DNA from: Candidatus Binatus sp.
Lineage (GTDB): Bacteria > Desulfobacterota > Binatia > Binatales > Binataceae
Direction: 5' to 3'
Length of the DNA stretch: 51,613 bases
Assembly: GCF_030646925.1 (NCBI RefSeq)
Contig: NZ_JAUSKL010000101.1
Span: forward strand, 1 to 51,613
Shown here: positions 1 to 42,368 of the stretch, one piece after another
Layout: every line of letters starts with the position of its first letter
Numbering within the stretch: position 1 is the first letter of the stretch
The notes under the pieces: model-generated
Database searches by the model: none
The model's input: only the letters and a program-made list of their open reading frames with translations
Told to the model about the DNA's origin: nothing
Position numbers and translations under genes: made by a program

Positions 1-924
1 ATGCCCAACGCGTCCCAGCGCAGTCTGCAGAAAATCCGTCTCCATCCATTCCGGATTGCCGAGCGCCTTTTTCGCGCCCTGCCAGAACCGGTCGGTCGCG
101 GCGCTGAAACTCACCCATCCGTCCTTGCACGGATAGACCCACTGCGCAGCGCTTTTTTTCCGCACGCTGAGCCGCTGGTATGACGCCGACTCTTTCGATT
201 CGTGCGAATAAAAACCCAGGTTGGGCCGCACCATGCTGATCATCGCTAGCCACTGGCTGACATCGACGTGCTGGCCCGCGCCGTTCGCCTTGCGGCCGTA
301 CAGCGCGCACATCGCCGCGGCTGCGCCGGTGTATCCGGTCAAGTAATCCGATTGGCGTCCGCCAAGTTTGAGCGGCGGTTCCGTCGATGGATCGGTCACC
401 TGATGCCACGGCGTTTCGAAGCCCACCGCGCTCATGTGCGTCGCGACCAGATCGCCTCCACGAAGATTTTTATATGGCGACTCGGCGCCGAAGCAGGTCA
501 TCGATACGACGATCAATTGCGGAAATCGCGCGGTGAGCGCGCGCCAATCGATTCCGATCTTTTCGTTTAGTGCGGGGCGATTCGGATTGAACACGATATC
601 AGCCTTCGCCAACAGCTCGAATAGCAGATCGCGGCCGCGCGAATGCTCGACGTCGAGCGTCACGCCGAGCTTGTTAGTGTTCAAAAACAGATGAAGGCCG
701 CCGGTCTCGGGATCCGGCATCTCGTCGCGAAATGGACCGAGCGTGCGTTCAAGCGCGCCGCGGCGCGGCGGCTCCACCTTGATTACTTCGGCGCCGAAAT
801 CGGCAAAAGATTTCGCCGCCATCGCAGCCGCCACGAACGGGATCGTATCGAGCGACGGCAATTCGACGACCTTCAGTCCCTCGAGCGCGCGCGGCGGCTC
901 GCGATACTCTTCAAATCGCGCCAT
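1..924 (-). CDS. CaiB/BaiF family class III CoA-transferase, partial (C-terminus beyond window)
   Basis: 308 codons read without a stop from the ATG at 924 to the window edge, so the C-terminal part is missing. Class III CoA-transferases move CoA between carboxylic acids or activate substrates through an aspartyl-CoA thioester. The N-terminal half has the family layout: LEGLKVVEL at about 15-22, the F-G-A-E-V-I-K-V-E segment at 43-51, and the N-K-L-G-V-T-L-D strand at 84-91. An aspartate near residue 193 (G-G-R-Q-S-D-Y-L-T-G) is the likely nucleophile by position. The start lies 2 bases after the stop of the HAD phosphatase gene, so the two genes are almost certainly co-transcribed. The substrate cannot be told from sequence. 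Confidence 0.88.
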   Translation of the reverse strand, partial: MARFEEYREPPRALEGLKVVELPSLDTIPFVAAAMAAKSFADFGAEVIKVEPPRRGALERTLGPFRDEMPDPETGGLHLFLNTNKLGVTLDVEHSRGRDLLFELLAKADIVFNPNRPALNEKIGIDWRALTARFPQLIVVSMTCFGAESPYKNLRGGDLVATHMSAVGFETPWHQVTDPSTEPPLKLGGRQSDYLTGYTGAAAAMCALYGRKANGAGQHVDVSQWLAMISMVRPNLGFYSHESKESASYQRLSVRKKSAAQWVYPCKDGWVSFSAATDRFWQGAKKALGNPEWMETDFLQTALGRVGH

Positions 925-34923: not shown

Positions 34924-35271
34924 CTACTTCGGGGCAGCGCCTTTCAGCAGCGCGTCGATTCGCGCGGCGCGCTCGAGCCCTGGATCGAATTCGAAGACCA
35001 GTTCCGGAGTGTAGCGCAGCCCGAGCGCCTTGCCCATCTGGCGCCGGATAAATCCCGCGGCGCTCTTGAAGCCCGCGATCGCCTCCGCCGCGCGCACCGA
35101 GCCCTCGAGATGCGAGAAGTACACGCGCCCGTGGCGGAGATCGTCGTCCATCTTGACGCCGGTGAGCGTGATTCCGCGGAGCCTCGGATCGCGCAAATCC
35201 TTAATCAGCAGCTCGGACATCTCCCTGAGCACTGCTTCGCCGACGCGTTCGGATCTCCGTCCTTCAGCCAC
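34924..35271 (-). CDS. rbfA: Ribosome-binding factor A
   Basis: A 115-residue protein with the KH-like RbfA fold: R-R-S-E-R-V-G-E-A-V-L-R-E near 5-17, I-K-D-L-R-D-P-R-L near 23-31, V-Y-F-S-H-L-E-G near 50-57, the F-I-R-R-Q-M-G-K-A-L-G-L-R-Y-T-P-E-L segment near 74-91, and the C-terminal I-D-A-L-L. RbfA assists 30S maturation around the 16S 5' end. It is the last gene of the rimP operon here, 58 bases after the DUF503 gene. truB and rpsO, often next, are not in this window. Confidence 0.95.
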   Translation of the reverse strand: MAEGRRSERVGEAVLREMSELLIKDLRDPRLRGITLTGVKMDDDLRHGRVYFSHLEGSVRAAEAIAGFKSAAGFIRRQMGKALGLRYTPELVFEFDPGLERAARIDALLKGAAPK

Positions 35272-35329: not shown

Positions 35330-35617
35330 TCAATAGTTGGTAATCTCGAGCCACTCTTCGCCGAGCGGCGCCATCGCGAGCGAATCGATAAAGTTCACGA
35401 CTTCGCGTAGCGCCTGGTCCACGAATGCGCGATCGTTGCCAACCTGGCAAATTCCCAACTCGGCGCGCTGCCACATGTCATGGCCGTCCGACTCGGCGAT
35501 CGAGACGTTGAACTTGTTGCGCACGCGCGCCTTGATCGCGCGCAGCACCTGACGTTTGCCCTTTAGCGAATGGTTCTCCGGCAGAAACAAGGTCAGCCGC
35601 ATGACGCCGACGACCAT
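35330..35617 (-). CDS. DUF503 family protein
   Basis: The ATG at 35617 (MVVGVMRL) gives 95 residues, the usual length; a TTG at 35635 would add six. The family opening M-V-V-G-V-M-R-L-T-L-F-L-P-E-N-H-S-L-K-G is plain and is followed by K-R-Q-V-L-R near 21-26 and the central N-V-S-I-A-E near 37-42. DUF503 proteins are small and of unknown function, often found next to rbfA and infB. Located between infB and rbfA in the operon. Confidence 0.9.
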   Translation of the reverse strand: MVVGVMRLTLFLPENHSLKGKRQVLRAIKARVRNKFNVSIAESDGHDMWQRAELGICQVGNDRAFVDQALREVVNFIDSLAMAPLGEEWLEITNY

Positions 35618-35668
35618 GATTGCAATCTCCACCAACCCGCCCGCGCCTGCGCCACGGGCATCGGCCGC

Positions 35669-38599
35669 TCAAGTCTGCAGTTGCTTCTCGACCGCCGCCT
35701 GCCCGCGCACCGTCTGCGGCCTGGGCGCCTCGAGCTTGCGCAGAATCGCTTCCATCTCGAAGGCCTCGATAATGTCGCCCGGCTTCACGTCGTTGAAATT
35801 TTCGAGCGCGACACCGCATTCGTAACCCGCGGCCACTTCGCGCGCATCGTCCTTGAACCGCTTGAGCGACGCGAGCTTGCCTTCCCAGACCTGGCGGCCG
35901 TCGCGCACCAGTCGCGAACGCGCGCTGCGCACGAGCTTGCCGTCGAGCACCATCGCGCCGGCGACGGTCGCACCCGGCACGTTGAAGGTCTTGCGCACTT
36001 CGGCGCGGCCGAGCGACTTCTCGCGATATGTCGGCGCGAGCAAACCTTCCATCGCCTCGCGCATGTCGTTGATCGCTTCGTAGATGACCGTATAGAGGCG
36101 AATCTCGACGCCTTCCTTTTCCGCCAGCGCGGCGGCCTTGGGCTCCGGCCGGATATTGAAGCCGATCACGATTCCCTTCGACGCCGACGCGAGCGTCACG
36201 TCGGTTTCGGAAATCGCGCCCGCCGACTGATGGATCACTTCGAGCTTGACCTCGGGCGTCGATAGCCGCTGCAGCGAGTCGGCCAACGCCTCGACCGAGC
36301 CCTGCACGTCGCCCTTCAAGATGACCTTGAGTTCCTTCACTTCGCCGGCCGCCATCCGCTGGCTCAAATCCTCGAGCGAGATGCGGCTGGTCTTGGCGAG
36401 TTCGCCCTCGCGCTGCTTGGTGCGCCGATACTCGGCGACCTGGCGCGCCTTGGATTCCTCGACGACGCAAGTAAACACGGTGCCCGGCTCGGGCACGTTC
36501 GACAGCCCGAAGATTTCGACCGGCGTGGACGGCCCCGCTTCCGCGAGCCGTTGGCCGAGGTGATTCTGCATCGCGCGCACGCGTCCGTACGACGTGCCGC
36601 TGACGAACGCATCGCCCTGATGGAGGGTGCCTTCCTGCACCAGCACCGTCGCGACCGGTCCGCGTCCGCGATCGAGCTGCGATTCGACTATCGTGCCGCG
36701 CGCCGGACGATTCGGATTCGCTTTCAGGTCCATCACGTCGGCCTGCAAGAGCACCATCTCGAGCAATCGATCGATTCCTTCACTGGTGCGCGCCGAAACC
36801 GGCACGGTGATCGTGTCGCCGCCGTAATCCTCCGGCACCAGTCCAATCTCCGTCAGCCGCTGCTTGACGCGATCGAGGTTGGCGTCGGGCAAATCGATCT
36901 TGTTGATCGCGACGATAATCGGTACCTTGGCCGCGCGCGCGTGAGCCACCGCTTCCTGCGTCTGCGGCATCACGCCTTCGTTGGCGGCGACCACCAGGAT
37001 GACGATGTCGGTGACCTTCGCGCCGCGCGCGCGCATCGCAGTGAACGCCTCATGGCCCGGCGTATCGACGAATGCGATCTTGCGCCCGTTCGATTCGACG
37101 GTGTAGGCGCCGATGTGCTGCGTGATTCCGCCGAACTCGCGCGCCGTCACGTTGGTGTGGCGGATCGCATCGAGCAGCGACGTCTTGCCGTGATCGACGT
37201 GGCCCATCACCGTGACGACCGGCGGACGCGTCACGCTTTCGCCGGCAGCGACTTCCTCGGTGGTCTCCTCGATCGCGGATTCCGCGTCGAACGACACGTT
37301 CTCGACGCTGTAACCGAACTCGCTCGCGAGCAGCGTCGCGGTATCGACATCGAGCGTCTGATTGAGCGTCGCCATCTGGCCAAGTTCCATCAATTTCTTG
37401 ATCAGGTCGCCAGCCTTGACGCCCATGCTGCGGCCGAGATCGCCGACCGTCACGCCTTCGGTGATTCGCACGACGCGCTTCGACGCTCGCGGCGTCGTGA
37501 TTTCGGTTTTGCGCTGTTCCTTGCCGGGTAGCGCGCGGCGCTTCTTCGGCACGCGCAGTCCGCGCATCTCGCGCTCGGCGGCGAGGTCGGTGCTGCCCTT
37601 CTTGACGACTTTCTTTTTCTTGATCCCGCGACCGCCGCCCGGTTTGGCTGCCTGATCGGGCGGAAGCTGCGGCATCCCGTCAGCCGGCGCTTGCGGAGCT
37701 TGCTGCTGAGTCGCGAAGCGTCCGGTAAGGCCAGGACGCGAAGCCGGCGGACCGCCCGGACGACTCGGCGCCATTGCCGGACGCACCGGCGCTTTTGGCC
37801 TCAAATCGATCCTGCCGAGAACCTTGGGCCCCTTCTGGCCATCGTCAAGCGTCGGGCCGGATTGCGACCCGCGCGTAAGATTGATCGTGCTGCGCGCCGG
37901 CAGTTCCGCGGTCCGCACCCGATCGGTGCGATAGCCAAAGCGTGACGACGGCGCCGCAGGCGCCTGCGGTTCGGGAGGAGCGGCGGGCGCCAGAGCTTCA
38001 ACGACTGGCCGCGCCTCGGGCTCCGTAACGATCACGGGTTCTGGCTCGGGCTCCGGTAGAGGCTCCACGTAATGCTTCATCGCTTCCGCTTGCGATTCGA
38101 TTTCAGGCTCGGCGGGCCGGCTCTCTGCCGGCAAGGCAGCCTCGCTCGCGGACGCGGATTCCGCCGCCTGAATCGCCGGTTTCGTTCCCGGCTCGGGCTC
38201 GACAAAAATCGGCGCTTCGAGCGCGGGCTCCGGCGCCTCGTCCAGGAACGGCGACACGAACGATTCGTCGCTCTGGTTCTCGACTTCGAAATGAAACGGC
38301 GCCTCGGCATTCGCCGCGGATTGCCCGGGCTCCGTATGCCGCCGGCGCATCACCGTTGCGGTCAGCCGCTTCTCGAGAATTTTGCCGGTGCTGGTCTCGA
38401 GCACCGTCTCGCGCCGCAGGATGGTCGCGCGATGCGCCTGTTCGTCGAGGTCGGCCTTCAGCCGATCCGCCTCTTCAGGAGAGAGCAGACTCGACTCCGT
38501 GGGACCGTGTCCGAGCTTAAGCCGTGCACTCGAAGCGAGTAGTTCCTCGACCGAGTGTCCCCAATCAGCGGCCAGTGTTTTGATCCGCTTTCGCGCCAT
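35669..38599 (-). CDS. infB: Translation initiation factor IF-2
   Basis: A 976-residue IF-2. The first 330 residues are a long Pro/Ala/Glu-rich, low-complexity region with repeated P-E-P-E stretches. A basic patch at 327-336 (K-K-K-K-V-V-K-K) leads to an IF2_N domain near 375-430. The G domain has G1 G-H-V-D-H-G-K-T at 466-473, G3 D-T-P-G-H at 512-516, and N-K-I-D at 566-569. The C-terminal domains 2-3 follow. IF-2 delivers fMet-tRNA to the 30S subunit and promotes subunit joining. Next to ylxR upstream (10 bases) and DUF503 downstream, the standard order. Confidence 0.97.
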
Positions 38600-38609
38600 T
38601 CTGTTTATG

Positions 38610-38903
38610 CTATTCGACCTTTGTGCTTCTATCCAGAGTAAGTTTAACTGCTTCTGCGATCCTGAGCCGCTCGCCGCGATCGATTCTCCGTCTTAGCGAG
38701 CTAAACACCTTTACCTTAGTATATACTAATTGGAGCGCGCATTCATTCGTGCGATGCAAATATGCGCCCCGCCCCGCTCGCTTCCCCTCGCAATCCGCCA
38801 CGACGCTGTCTTCCACCAACGCGATTCGAACCATCGCGGCTTTCGCATCCTTCTTCATGCATCCGATACAGGTGCGCTCTACCTTATGACTTTCCTCCGG
38901 CAT
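38610..38903 (-). CDS. YlxR-type RNA-binding protein (DUF448)
   Basis: From the ATG at 38903, 97 residues; a second ATG at 38924 would lengthen it by seven and increase the overlap with nusA. The signature is R-T-C-I-G-C-M-K-K near 9-17, followed by R-G-A-Y-L-H-R near 45-51 and the positively charged C-terminal helices. YlxR is a small RNA-binding protein encoded between nusA and infB in most bacteria; a regulatory role has been proposed. The start overlaps the nusA stop by 20 bases, and infB follows after 10 bases. Confidence 0.93.
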
Positions 38904-40314
38904 CTTCCGCTTTTTCTCCGGCATCGTGATCCGCCTCGGACAACTCAGGCGCCGCGATCGCCGACGTTTCTGCTTCCTCCGGCTCCCCGGCAGTCGCGCC
39001 TTCGACTGTCGAGGCCGTGTCCGCCGCGGCCGCCGCCGCCAGCGCCGCAGCCTGCGCCTTGGCTTCTGCCTGCAACTTCTTGTTCGCGACGTGCTCGCGC
39101 GCCGCGTTGATTATCTGCTGCGCCCGCTCCGCGCTGATTCCCTCGACGTCGAAGGCGTTCTCGTCGGCCTCCGCTAGTTGCTCCGCCGATCGGAATCCCC
39201 ACTGGTAGAGCAACTCCGCGTTGATATCGCCGATGCTCGGTATCGCGTTCAGCGACGCGCGCGCCGATCGCGCTTCTTCCTCCGCTTCGGCCTCGCTCCG
39301 CACGTCGAGTTTCCATCCGGTGAGGCGATGGGCGAGCCGCACGTTCTGGCCGCGCTTGCCGATCGCGAGCGATAGCTGATCGTCGGGCACGATCACTTCC
39401 ATCGCATGTTCGTCCTCGTCGATGATCACTTTCGATACCTTGGCCGGCGCGAGCGCGCGGCATACCAGCTCCGCCTGATCGTCGGTCCACGGCACGATGT
39501 CGATTTTTTCGCCGCGCAGCTCCTGCACCACCGATTGTACGCGGGTGCCTTTCATCCCGACGCATGCGCCGACCGCATCAACGTCCGAGTCCTTCGAATG
39601 GACCGCGACCTTGGCGCGGCCGCCCGGCTCGCGTGCGCTCTGCCGAATCTCAACGATGCCTTCGTAGATCTCCGGGACTTCCTGCTCGAACAGCTTCATC
39701 AGGAAATCGGTCGAGGTGCGCGAGAGGATGATCGCGAGCCCTTTTTCAGAGAGATCGACGTCCAGGATCAGCGCGCGAATGCGATCGCCCTGCCGATAGC
39801 GCTCGTGCGGAATCTGTTCCTTCTCCGGCAAGATCGCCTCGGTGCGCCCGAGATTGACGATCATGTTCTTGCGCTCGAAGCGCTGCACGATGCCCGAGAC
39901 GACTTCCTGCTTGCGATCCTTGAACTCGTTGAAGATCTGCTTGCGTTCGGCGTCACGGATATGCTGGATGAGATTCTGCTTGGCCGCCTGCGCCGCGATT
40001 CGGCCCATCGTGGCCGTGTCCAGCTTGATCAAGATTTCGTCGCCGACTTCCGCTTCCGGATCGTACTTGGCGCGCGCCTCTTTGACGTCTGCTTCCGACG
40101 CCGCATTGTTCACCTTCTCGACGACGGTTTTGATTTCGAACAACTCGATCTCGCCGATATCCGGATTGAAGCGAGACTCGATATTGCGGTCGGGGCCGAA
40201 CGTGCGCCGCGCCGCCGAATGCATCATCTCCTCGACCGCGTTAATCACGATCGTCTTATCGATGCCCTTTTCCTTGGAGACCTGTTCGATTACCCGGTTC
40301 AGATCAACCTGCAT
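38884..40314 (-). CDS. nusA: Transcription termination/antitermination factor NusA
   Basis: A 476-residue NusA. The N-terminal domain has V-I-E-Q-V-S-K-E-K-G-I-D-K near 8-20. S1-like I-V-Q-R-F-E-R near 143-149 and KH1/KH2 segments (V-G-A-C-V-G-M-K-G-T-R near 248-258, and L-A-I-G-K-R-G-Q-N-V-R-L-A near 317-329) follow. A helix-hairpin-helix-like part (I-P-S-I-G-D-I-N-A-E-L-L) and an Ala/Glu-rich tail of about 60 residues end the chain. NusA modulates RNA polymerase pausing, termination and antitermination. In this operon it may act on its own leader, which has a terminator-like switch. Confidence 0.96.
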   Translation of the reverse strand: MQVDLNRVIEQVSKEKGIDKTIVINAVEEMMHSAARRTFGPDRNIESRFNPDIGEIELFEIKTVVEKVNNAASEADVKEARAKYDPEAEVGDEILIKLDTATMGRIAAQAAKQNLIQHIRDAERKQIFNEFKDRKQEVVSGIVQRFERKNMIVNLGRTEAILPEKEQIPHERYRQGDRIRALILDVDLSEKGLAIILSRTSTDFLMKLFEQEVPEIYEGIVEIRQSAREPGGRAKVAVHSKDSDVDAVGACVGMKGTRVQSVVQELRGEKIDIVPWTDDQAELVCRALAPAKVSKVIIDEDEHAMEVIVPDDQLSLAIGKRGQNVRLAHRLTGWKLDVRSEAEAEEEARSARASLNAIPSIGDINAELLYQWGFRSAEQLAEADENAFDVEGISAERAQQIINAAREHVANKKLQAEAKAQAAALAAAAAADTASTVEGATAGEPEEAETSAIAAPELSEADHDAGEKAEDAGGKS

Positions 40315-40401: not shown

Positions 40402-40893
40402 CTATTCGCCTTTGTCAAAATCGTATTCGTAATTCGCTCCCGCGATCTCGTCGAAACTAAATGATTGACGTTTTCTGCTGACCTCATCTTCAACTTCAAT
40501 TCCAGCCGCGCTCACCGCCTCGAGCCGGCCGATAAACGACTTCTGCCCCTCGCGCGCGCGATGCGTCCTCACTTTCACCCGCCGCCCGCGGCACGCCTCG
40601 AAATGCTCGAGCTTCCGAAGCGGCCGGTTCACTCCCGGCGACGACACCTCCAGCGTGTAGCGCCCCTCGACCGGATCGTACACGTCGAGCAAGTCGCCCA
40701 GCTTCGGACTCAGCTTCTCGAGGTCGCTGAGCGCGATTCCGCGCCCCGGCTTGTCCACCAGGAGCCGCAGTAGCGAGTTGCGCGTCCCGTGGCGATAATC
40801 CACCGACACCAACTCATAGCCCTCGCGCTCGATGTGCGGTTCCAGCAATCCCGCCACCTTCTCCGCGACCGGATGAAGCGTCAGCACCCCCAT
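40402..40893 (-). CDS. rimP: Ribosome maturation factor RimP
   Basis: A 163-residue RimP. Recognisable parts are E-R-E-G-Y-E-L-V-S-V-D-Y near 22-33, R-L-L-V-D-K near 43-48, Y-T-L-E-V-S-S-P-G-V-N-R-P-L near 78-91, and G-R-R-V-K-V-R near 102-108. It assists 30S assembly. The ATG at 40893 follows a strong Shine-Dalgarno (gggaggaggtgag). It is the first gene of the rimP-nusA-ylxR-infB-DUF503-rbfA operon and lies 71 bases after a terminator-like hairpin; nusA starts 87 bases downstream. Confidence 0.95.
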   Translation of the reverse strand: MGVLTLHPVAEKVAGLLEPHIEREGYELVSVDYRHGTRNSLLRLLVDKPGRGIALSDLEKLSPKLGDLLDVYDPVEGRYTLEVSSPGVNRPLRKLEHFEACRGRRVKVRTHRAREGQKSFIGRLEAVSAAGIEVEDEVSRKRQSFSFDEIAGANYEYDFDKGE

Positions 40894-40962
40894 CGGTACT
40901 CACCTCCTCCCATTCCGCGCGGCCAAATCCGCTCAATATTCGGGGTCACTTCGGCGACGCCA

Positions 40963-40988
40963 ACAAAAAAGTGGGCACGCGCCCACTT
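40963..40988 (-). terminator. Intrinsic terminator/attenuator in the rimP leader
   Basis: On the minus strand an 8-bp stem (aagtgggc / gcccactt, loop gcgt; bases 40969-40988) is followed by a run of T (minus strand 40970-40965). It sits 71 bases upstream of the rimP start. Its first strand is also perfectly complementary to a segment at 41107-41117, giving two mutually exclusive structures. Confidence 0.8.
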
Positions 40989-41117
40989 AGCGCTTGTTAG
41001 AATATCATCCGGGCCAACCTCCGGGCAAGGTGGCGGCCCTCCCGCGCCAGTCAACATTCAACAAACTCAGCCGCCAGTGCCTTCTTTGACGATATCAGCC
41101 TATATTGCTAAGTGGGC
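40965..41117 (-). promoter_or_regulatory. Candidate terminator/antiterminator leader RNA of the rimP-nusA-infB operon
   Basis: Reading the minus strand 5' to 3': segment A gcccacttagc (41117-41107); about 115 bases of spacer; segment B gctaagtgggc (40991-40981); then segment C gcccactt with a U-tract (40976-40965). A and B pair perfectly over 11 bp. B and C form the terminator. The spacer can fold further: AAUAU/AUAUU just inside the A-B stem (41106-41102 with about 41001-40997), and a GGCGGC/GCCGCC stem. This is the layout of a riboswitch-like attenuator. No match to a known aptamer or tRNA was recognised. The same DNA also holds the start of the divergent gene at 41121. Confidence 0.6.
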
Positions 41118-41120
41118 CCT

Positions 41121-42368
41121 ATGCTTGCCAGTCCTGCCGACGCACTTTACGACGAGCCGATTTCAATCCGGCTCGCAGGTCTGCCCGCCTCGACGCAGGT
41201 CGTGGTTCGAGCGGATGCGATCGACGATTTGGGCCATCGATGGGCTTCCTACGCGGAATTCGTCACCGATTCGACCGGCGCAATCGATCTCGCGCGCACC
41301 GCGCCGATCGCCGACAGCTACAGTCTCGCCGACGCCAATGGCCTTTTGTGGTCGATGACGCTCGATTCCGCAATCGTCGAGCGCACGCCGTTCGTCAAAA
41401 TCAACGCGGAGCCCGTATCGATAAAGCTCAGCGCCGCGACCGACGGGAAAATCGTCGATCAGGCCGAGCTCACCCGGCGCTTCCTCGCGCCCGGCATCGT
41501 GCAAAAGCAAGTCTCCGACGACGGCCTCGTCGCGACGATGTTTCATCACGAAGACGGCCCGCGGTCCGGCGTGATCCTGCTCGGCGGCTCCGGCGGCGGC
41601 CTGTCCGTCGAGCATCCTGCGATGCTGGCCTCGCGCGGCTTCGCCGTGATGTCGCTCGGCTACTTCGCGATGCCCGGATTGCCGCGCGACCTGATGGACA
41701 TCCCGCTCGAATATTTCGCCAAGGCGATCGCCTGGATGCGCAATCATCTGAGCGTGCGCGGCGACAAGATCGCTGCAATCGGAAGCTCGCGCGGCGGAGA
41801 ATTGGTGCTGCTCCTCGGTGCAACGTTTCCGGAAATCAAGGCGGTCGTCGCATACGTACCGAGCGGAATCGTATGGCCGGGAATCGGCGCGGCGGGCGCG
41901 CCGGTCCGGTCGGCGTGGACGTTGAAGGGTGAGCAAGTTCCCTGCATCGCGACCACCACCGACGGCCTCGAAGCGTGGCAGCAGTCGCCGGTCGCGCTCA
42001 CGCCGTGGTTCCTCGAATGCCTCAAACATCGCCAGAGCGCCGAGCGCGCCGCGATCGCCGTCGAAAAAATCAGCGGCCCGGTCCTGATGTTCTCCGGCAC
42101 CGACGACCAGATGTGGCCGTCGCTCAATCTCGCCGACATCGCAATGCAGCGCCTCAACGCGCTCAATTTCCCGCATCCGCACGAGCACGTCGCCTACGCC
42201 GGCGCCGGTCACCTGATCCGGTTTCCGTACACGCCGGTGATCACCGAAATATTTCATCCGGTGGTGAAAACCCCGATGGCGCTCGGCGGTACGCCCGCGG
42301 CCAATCACCTCGCCAACCTCGATTCGTGGCGCCGATGCCTCAGATTTCTCGCGACCCATCTCGACTAG
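41121..42368 (+). CDS. Acyl-CoA thioesterase/BAAT-family hydrolase
   Basis: The ATG at 41121 (M-L-A-S-P-A-D) gives 415 residues; a GTG three codons upstream is an alternative. The N-terminal D-E-P-I-S-I-R-L-A-G-L-P near 11-22 and D-D-L-G-H-R-W-A-S near 35-43 resemble the acyl-CoA thioester hydrolase/BAAT N-domain. The alpha/beta-hydrolase C-domain has the nucleophile elbow G-S-S-R-G-G-E near residue 219-225, S-G-T-D-D-Q-M near 333-339, and G-A-G-H near 370. Members hydrolyse acyl-CoA or transfer the acyl group to amino acids; Ser rather than Cys is present here. Divergent from the rimP leader. Confidence 0.87.
   Translation: MLASPADALYDEPISIRLAGLPASTQVVVRADAIDDLGHRWASYAEFVTDSTGAIDLARTAPIADSYSLADANGLLWSMTLDSAIVERTPFVKINAEPVSIKLSAATDGKIVDQAELTRRFLAPGIVQKQVSDDGLVATMFHHEDGPRSGVILLGGSGGGLSVEHPAMLASRGFAVMSLGYFAMPGLPRDLMDIPLEYFAKAIAWMRNHLSVRGDKIAAIGSSRGGELVLLLGATFPEIKAVVAYVPSGIVWPGIGAAGAPVRSAWTLKGEQVPCIATTTDGLEAWQQSPVALTPWFLECLKHRQSAERAAIAVEKISGPVLMFSGTDDQMWPSLNLADIAMQRLNALNFPHPHEHVAYAGAGHLIRFPYTPVITEIFHPVVKTPMALGGTPAANHLANLDSWRRCLRFLATHLD

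Follow-up and report, generated by a model that had tools for sequence, protein, structure and literature searches.

The window analysed here, a stretch of 51,613 nucleotides, carries a rimP-nusA-infB gene cluster on the minus strand and a divergent gene on the plus strand. The rimP-nusA-infB gene order 3' of the hairpin listed below was confirmed by Pfam. The features of the locus are the following:

41121–42368, plus strand: divergent gene for a BAAT / acyl-CoA thioester hydrolase (PF08840 and PF04775)
41107–41117, minus strand: segment A, complement of segment B; probably a chance match and not counted in the element
40999–41028, minus strand: promoter-like sequence, TTGCCC (41028–41023), 18-nt spacer and TATTCT (41004–40999), with TGA before the latter (extended -10)
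40990–40994, minus strand: predicted transcription start, about 40992, placed by the usual -10 to +1 distance
40969–40988, minus strand: terminator hairpin of the rimP leader, segments B and C, AAGTGGGC-GCGT-GCCCACTT, recognized by sequence, fold and conservation
40960–40970, minus strand: U-tract (40970–40965) and conserved tail TTTTTTGTTGG (alignment A1)
40402–40893, minus strand: rimP (PF02576 and PF17384)
38884–40314, minus strand: nusA (NusA_N, S1 and KH domains, Pfam)
38610–38924, minus strand: ylxR (PF04296)
35669–38599, minus strand: infB (PF11987 and PF00009)
35330–35635, minus strand: DUF503 gene (PF04456)
34924–35271, minus strand: rbfA (PF02033)

The likely ATG of the divergent BAAT-like gene, at 41121, lies three bases past segment A, and an alternative GTG at 41112 falls within A.

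Segments B (40988–40981) and C (40976–40969) of the minus strand pair over 8 bp around a 4-nt loop, and six T residues follow. This hairpin folds at -13.2 kcal/mol, and equal stability was reached in one of 200 shuffles. The first-pass annotation had described three segments at this place, with C and A as competing partners of B. Its coordinates and both pairings are exact, namely 8 bp for B-C and a perfect 11 bp for A-B with 115 nt between the two partners. It had also pointed to self-complementary words between A and B (AAUAU/AUAUU and GGCGGC/GCCGCC); these are present in the sequence, but the predicted fold pairs neither set and forms a different inner helix. The B-C hairpin was the one terminator-like site detected within positions 40600–41500 (shuffle mean 0.6). 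A single site of this kind is not unusual alone; in the sequence comparison given below, it is conservation that lifts the hairpin over chance.

RimP was detected in 56 of 58 genomes, the source genome among them. The set of upstream regions comprised 50 sequences, 33 from the same family (the window included) and 17 from other families of the class; six RimP genomes were left out (G022, where the match was partial and located at a contig start, as well as G045, G046, G050, G051, and G057). The hairpin pattern was defined as GGGC-loop-GCC(C/T)-T within the last 300 nt 5' of rimP, with dinucleotide shuffles as controls. It was present in all 33 family members (shuffle mean 0.2, maximum 2) and in 14 of the 17 class members (shuffle maximum 1). 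Among the remaining three, L042 and L051 match a looser pattern, while L046 has 122 nt before the contig end. The occurrence of the pattern 5' of rimP throughout the family bears out the earlier reading of a premature terminator ahead of rimP-nusA-infB.

The 49 hairpins, that is all except L046, align almost letter for letter as GTGGGC-N4/5-GCCCAC-TTTTTT (alignment A1), with the T-tract on the rimP side in every one of them. Paired cells make up 94.5% of the stem in this alignment, in which the loop of L044 is misaligned and some pairs are lost from the count. Both sides are changed in seven cells, a number reached by none of 500 shuffles, and in three of the eight pairs, a level reached by 23 of 500; kinship alone can put related sequences above such shuffles without any structure. 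The double changes that keep pairing are A-U to G-C, G-C to A-U, and U-A to C-G. Two of the eight stem pairs, both core G-C pairs, are invariant, and the innermost pair departs from pairing by one unpaired cell only. As far as these alignments can tell, both the sequence and the pairing of the hairpin are constrained; the covariation is modest, and constraint on the sequence only could account for much of it. The alignment of rimP upstream regions with a covariation test, which had been suggested together with the first reading, found B-C conserved with modest covariation; the search for complements described below showed that segment A is not conserved.

The specificity of the hairpin was assessed using R1, a covariance model of the aligned hairpins (cut-off E ≤ 0.01); matches located up to 400 nt upstream of rimP on the same strand were regarded as rimP-linked. 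In the 58 relatives, R1 gave 50 matches, of which 47 were rimP-linked, in 47 genomes, 44 of these being members of the model. Seven rimP genomes are outside R1; a match was obtained in G045, G046, and G051 and none in G022, G041, G050, and G057. The three matches away from rimP are G025:C25, near a contig end, G037:C24 on the plus strand, which is the opposite strand of a rimP hairpin, and G019:C9. A phylum sample of 118 genomes yielded 74 matches. Forty-nine were rimP-linked; they come from 49 genomes (four of them R1 model members) of the 106 in which RimP was matched, and for the other 57 RimP genomes R1 gave nothing up to 400 nt upstream at E ≤ 0.01 under strict filters. The top 17 matches are all 5' of rimP. 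Among the 25 matches elsewhere, 19 have E > 0.001 and six have E < 0.001; one match, G100:C7, lies 450 nt 5' of RimP, past the 400-nt limit.

The exact hairpin pattern was found in at least 117 stretches of named genomes. Among the 117 matches listed, 98 are just 5' of RimP as recognized by our own profile, four are 5' of NusA, three are at contig ends, and 12 are elsewhere. The taxa named for 80 of these matches include Acidobacteria, Nitrospira, Deltaproteobacteria, Rokubacteria, and Chloroflexi. At the four nusA loci among the matches listed (L100, L108, L111, and L147), no RimP was recognized. In L100, L108, and L111, which are labelled Chloroflexota, Dehalococcoidia, and Opitutaceae, the pattern is located 6–19 nt before the NusA match. 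These nusA-only loci are consistent with nusA being regulated or acting as the regulator. The 12 listed loci with no RimP or NusA within 500 nt downstream are L065, L077, L078, L091, L101, L116, L128, L154, L156, L167, L168, and L169; ordinary terminators may be among them. On visual comparison, L078 is similar to L100 and L108, and L154 to L114.

An element of this kind has been described. In the section of PMC2965389 that deals with it (Naville & Gautheret, 2010), the rimP-leader is presented as the most ubiquitous transcription attenuator, consisting of a GGGc(...)gCCC stem and a U-stretch located 4–130 nt 5' of rimP. According to the same section, an antiterminator occurs in several Gammaproteobacteria only and none is visible in most species, the B. 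subtilis leader measures 180 nt, and NusA is proposed as the regulator. The stem of the window, GTGGGC-GCGT-GCCCAC, fits this description, as do TTTTTT directly 3' of the stem and the 75 nt between the hairpin end at 40969 and the rimP ATG at 40893. The position 5' of rimP-nusA-infB and the lack of a visible antiterminator, as judged by perfect complements upstream in the family, are further shared features. Two differences are that the present lineage is unnamed in that section and that a promoter-like sequence adjoins the hairpin here. Judged by every testable feature of the published description, the element of the window is a rimP-leader and was already known. The first-pass annotation had recognized no known aptamer; the element corresponds to the general rimP-leader outlined in PMC2965389.

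The Rfam family RF01770 represents the gammaproteobacterial form, and the E. coli leader scores 102 bits with it. R1 matches the E. coli leader at its downstream hairpin (20.8 bits, E 0.007). RF01770 has a second, upstream hairpin and gave no match in the source genome (E ≤ 10) or in positions 40700–41400 (E ≤ 5). In 33 genomes, no RF01770 match exceeded the 47-bit cut-off, and seven sub-threshold matches were obtained in three class-level genomes. The Rfam search proposed earlier returned no family for the whole window at the gathering score. At E ≤ 5 within positions 40700–41400, the one match was Pseudomonas sRNA P10 (41261–41335, plus strand; 21 bits versus a gathering score of 37). It is sub-threshold, lies on the other strand inside the divergent BAAT-like gene, and was rejected as probably due to chance. 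Among the titles listed in literature searches of a limited collection, none concerned the rimP leader in the present lineage.

Several reports concern the leader in model organisms. A 2025 review (PMC12288461) states that B. subtilis NusA autoregulates through NusA-stimulated termination in its leader. In E. coli, transcripts of the operon are reported to rise in mutants with less termination by NusA (PMC6511841), and a fusion containing the rimP 5'-UTR and ORF is reported to be lower in a rho mutant (PMC7815308). The rimP leader RNA is also named among attenuator-derived RNAs bound by ProQ (PMC5391140). The B. subtilis system resembles the present one in that the leader of its nusA operon carries an intrinsic terminator; it differs in that NusA dependence is reported there and inferred here, and in its leader of 180 nt.

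In the window, the promoter-like sequence sits between A and B. The motif TTGnnn-17..19-TAnnnT occurs in the 75 nt 5' of the hairpin in 32 of the 33 family members (shuffle mean 1.02, maximum 4), and in these 32 it ends 7–15 nt before GGGC. The TG of an extended -10 is also present in 25 of the 33 (shuffle mean 0.17, maximum 2). The sole miss, L029, has by eye the same promoter-like sequence with a 16-nt spacer. A generic promoter scan, which demands 9 of 12 consensus letters, found none; the promoter-like sequence of the window has 8 of 12 and is visible by comparison only. In L032 and L033, two members of genus g16 of the same family, TTGAAAGATTGTTTCATTTAAGTTAA precedes the rimP hairpin; it is AT-rich and promoter-like and unlike that in most of the family. 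The transcription start was estimated from the usual spacing between -10 and +1. The start so predicted, at about 40992, would be one base before B, with A about 115 nt upstream of it. Since the promoter-like sequence falls between A and B, B is expected at the 5' end of the RNA and A outside it. An additional promoter upstream of A is possible.

This bears directly on the earlier proposal of a switch, in which an A-B antiterminator and the B-C terminator would exclude each other within one leader RNA starting upstream of 41117. The A-B complement is perfect over 11 bp, and any 11-nt complement to the 5' side of the hairpin appeared in the 179 nt upstream in only 9 of 20,000 shuffles. However, the whole window contains 13 perfect inverted repeats that reach 11 bp or more within 200 nt, versus 7–14 in ten shuffles, so that comparable repeats are about as common by chance; the A-B match is unusual locally and not across the window. 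For the family, the 11 nt ending in GGGC were compared with their longest perfect complement 20–230 nt upstream. A perfect 11-bp complement was found in one of the 33 members, the window itself; the other 32 had no long perfect complement to the 5' arm in this interval, the longest measuring 4–7 nt, much like shuffles. The region aligns in the closest relative, L003, whose RimP is 90% identical, but A and B differ there by one base each and the pairing contains two G-A mismatches. Folding of the stretch from A to B gives a z score of -2.40, with equal stability in 5 of 200 shuffles; from A to C, the score is -1.36 (19 of 200). When positions 40969–41117 are folded with A included, the A-B form is preferred, and the case against the switch therefore rests on two points: A lies outside the predicted RNA, and it is not conserved. 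Pairings that are conserved and exclude each other within one RNA, as expected of a two-state attenuator, were not found among the family members. With a promoter-like sequence directly 5' of the hairpin in 32 of 33 members and the A complement in one of 33, the switch is not borne out. We regard it as very unlikely, and in this comparison the A-B match is very probably due to chance. A and B were also considered as terminal inverted repeats of a mobile element; this assignment was dropped, the pairing being absent in relatives.

The hairpin is genuine and represents a known, widely distributed candidate attenuator. In our view, it is highly probable that it acts as a promoter-abutting intrinsic terminator, whose readthrough would set the expression of rimP-nusA-infB and at which NusA would raise termination. 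Transcription would begin at about 40992, right at the hairpin, and the nascent RNA would fold it almost at once. A fraction of the polymerases would stop about 25–32 nt into the RNA, and the others would read through into rimP-nusA-ylxR-infB. Control by a protein acting on hairpin and polymerase is suggested because the stem is near-invariant and no conserved antiterminator is present. NusA, whose gene lies downstream, would promote termination and thereby keep its own production in check. It is the obvious candidate regulator, in line with the B. subtilis and E. coli reports.

Terminators do not usually have their U-tract as close to the transcription start as is predicted here, and this one could instead mark a pause site or stabilize the 5' end. 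The hairpin might then serve mainly in promoter-proximal pausing or mRNA stabilization, an idea favoured by the predicted starts in the family, 0–8 nt before GGGC and thus very early for termination. Against this, the U-tract is conserved together with the hairpin and is also present in E. coli, where the hairpin is within a longer leader, as well as in the 180-nt leader of B. subtilis mentioned in PMC2965389; we consider a role of this kind unlikely. A symmetrical, near-invariant sequence near a promoter could also be bound by a repressor as a DNA operator, or serve the divergent gene. Here, all 49 aligned hairpins have the T-tract on the side facing rimP, 98 of the 117 pattern matches listed are tied to rimP, the outer pairs vary with pairing mostly kept, and the sequence farther upstream varies among relatives, all of which makes an operator hardly credible. 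Termination with readthrough into the operon is the reading that we favour.

The proximity of promoter and terminator may extend beyond the family. Among the pattern matches listed, 71 loci were compared (the first 80 matches minus eight unassigned and one with too little upstream sequence; the other 37 were left out), and TTGnnn-16..19-TAnnnT was present in the 100 nt before GGGC in 46 of the 71 versus about seven in shuffles. In these 46 listed loci the motif ends 8–61 nt before GGGC, and in 45 of them at 41 nt or less. We tentatively raise the possibility that the rimP-leader of many phyla represents a 'zero-leader' attenuator, with the promoter directly against the hairpin and termination decided within the first ~30–60 nt. 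Neither an antiterminator nor an aptamer would fit upstream in such a layout, and regulation would have to act on polymerase fresh off the promoter, for example through the speed with which NusA replaces sigma. The closeness of promoter and hairpin in many lineages suggests that the arrangement merits a second look.

A two-state pairing that stands out in a single sequence can arise by chance, and the conserved signal here is a single hairpin. No attenuator is more widespread than the rimP-leader according to PMC2965389, yet in Rfam we met a rimP family for the Gammaproteobacteria only. The element probably governs how much NusA, IF2, and ribosome maturation factors the cell makes. If the promoter-abutting layout is true, NusA feedback in the earliest phase of transcription could be tested in a simple system of this kind.
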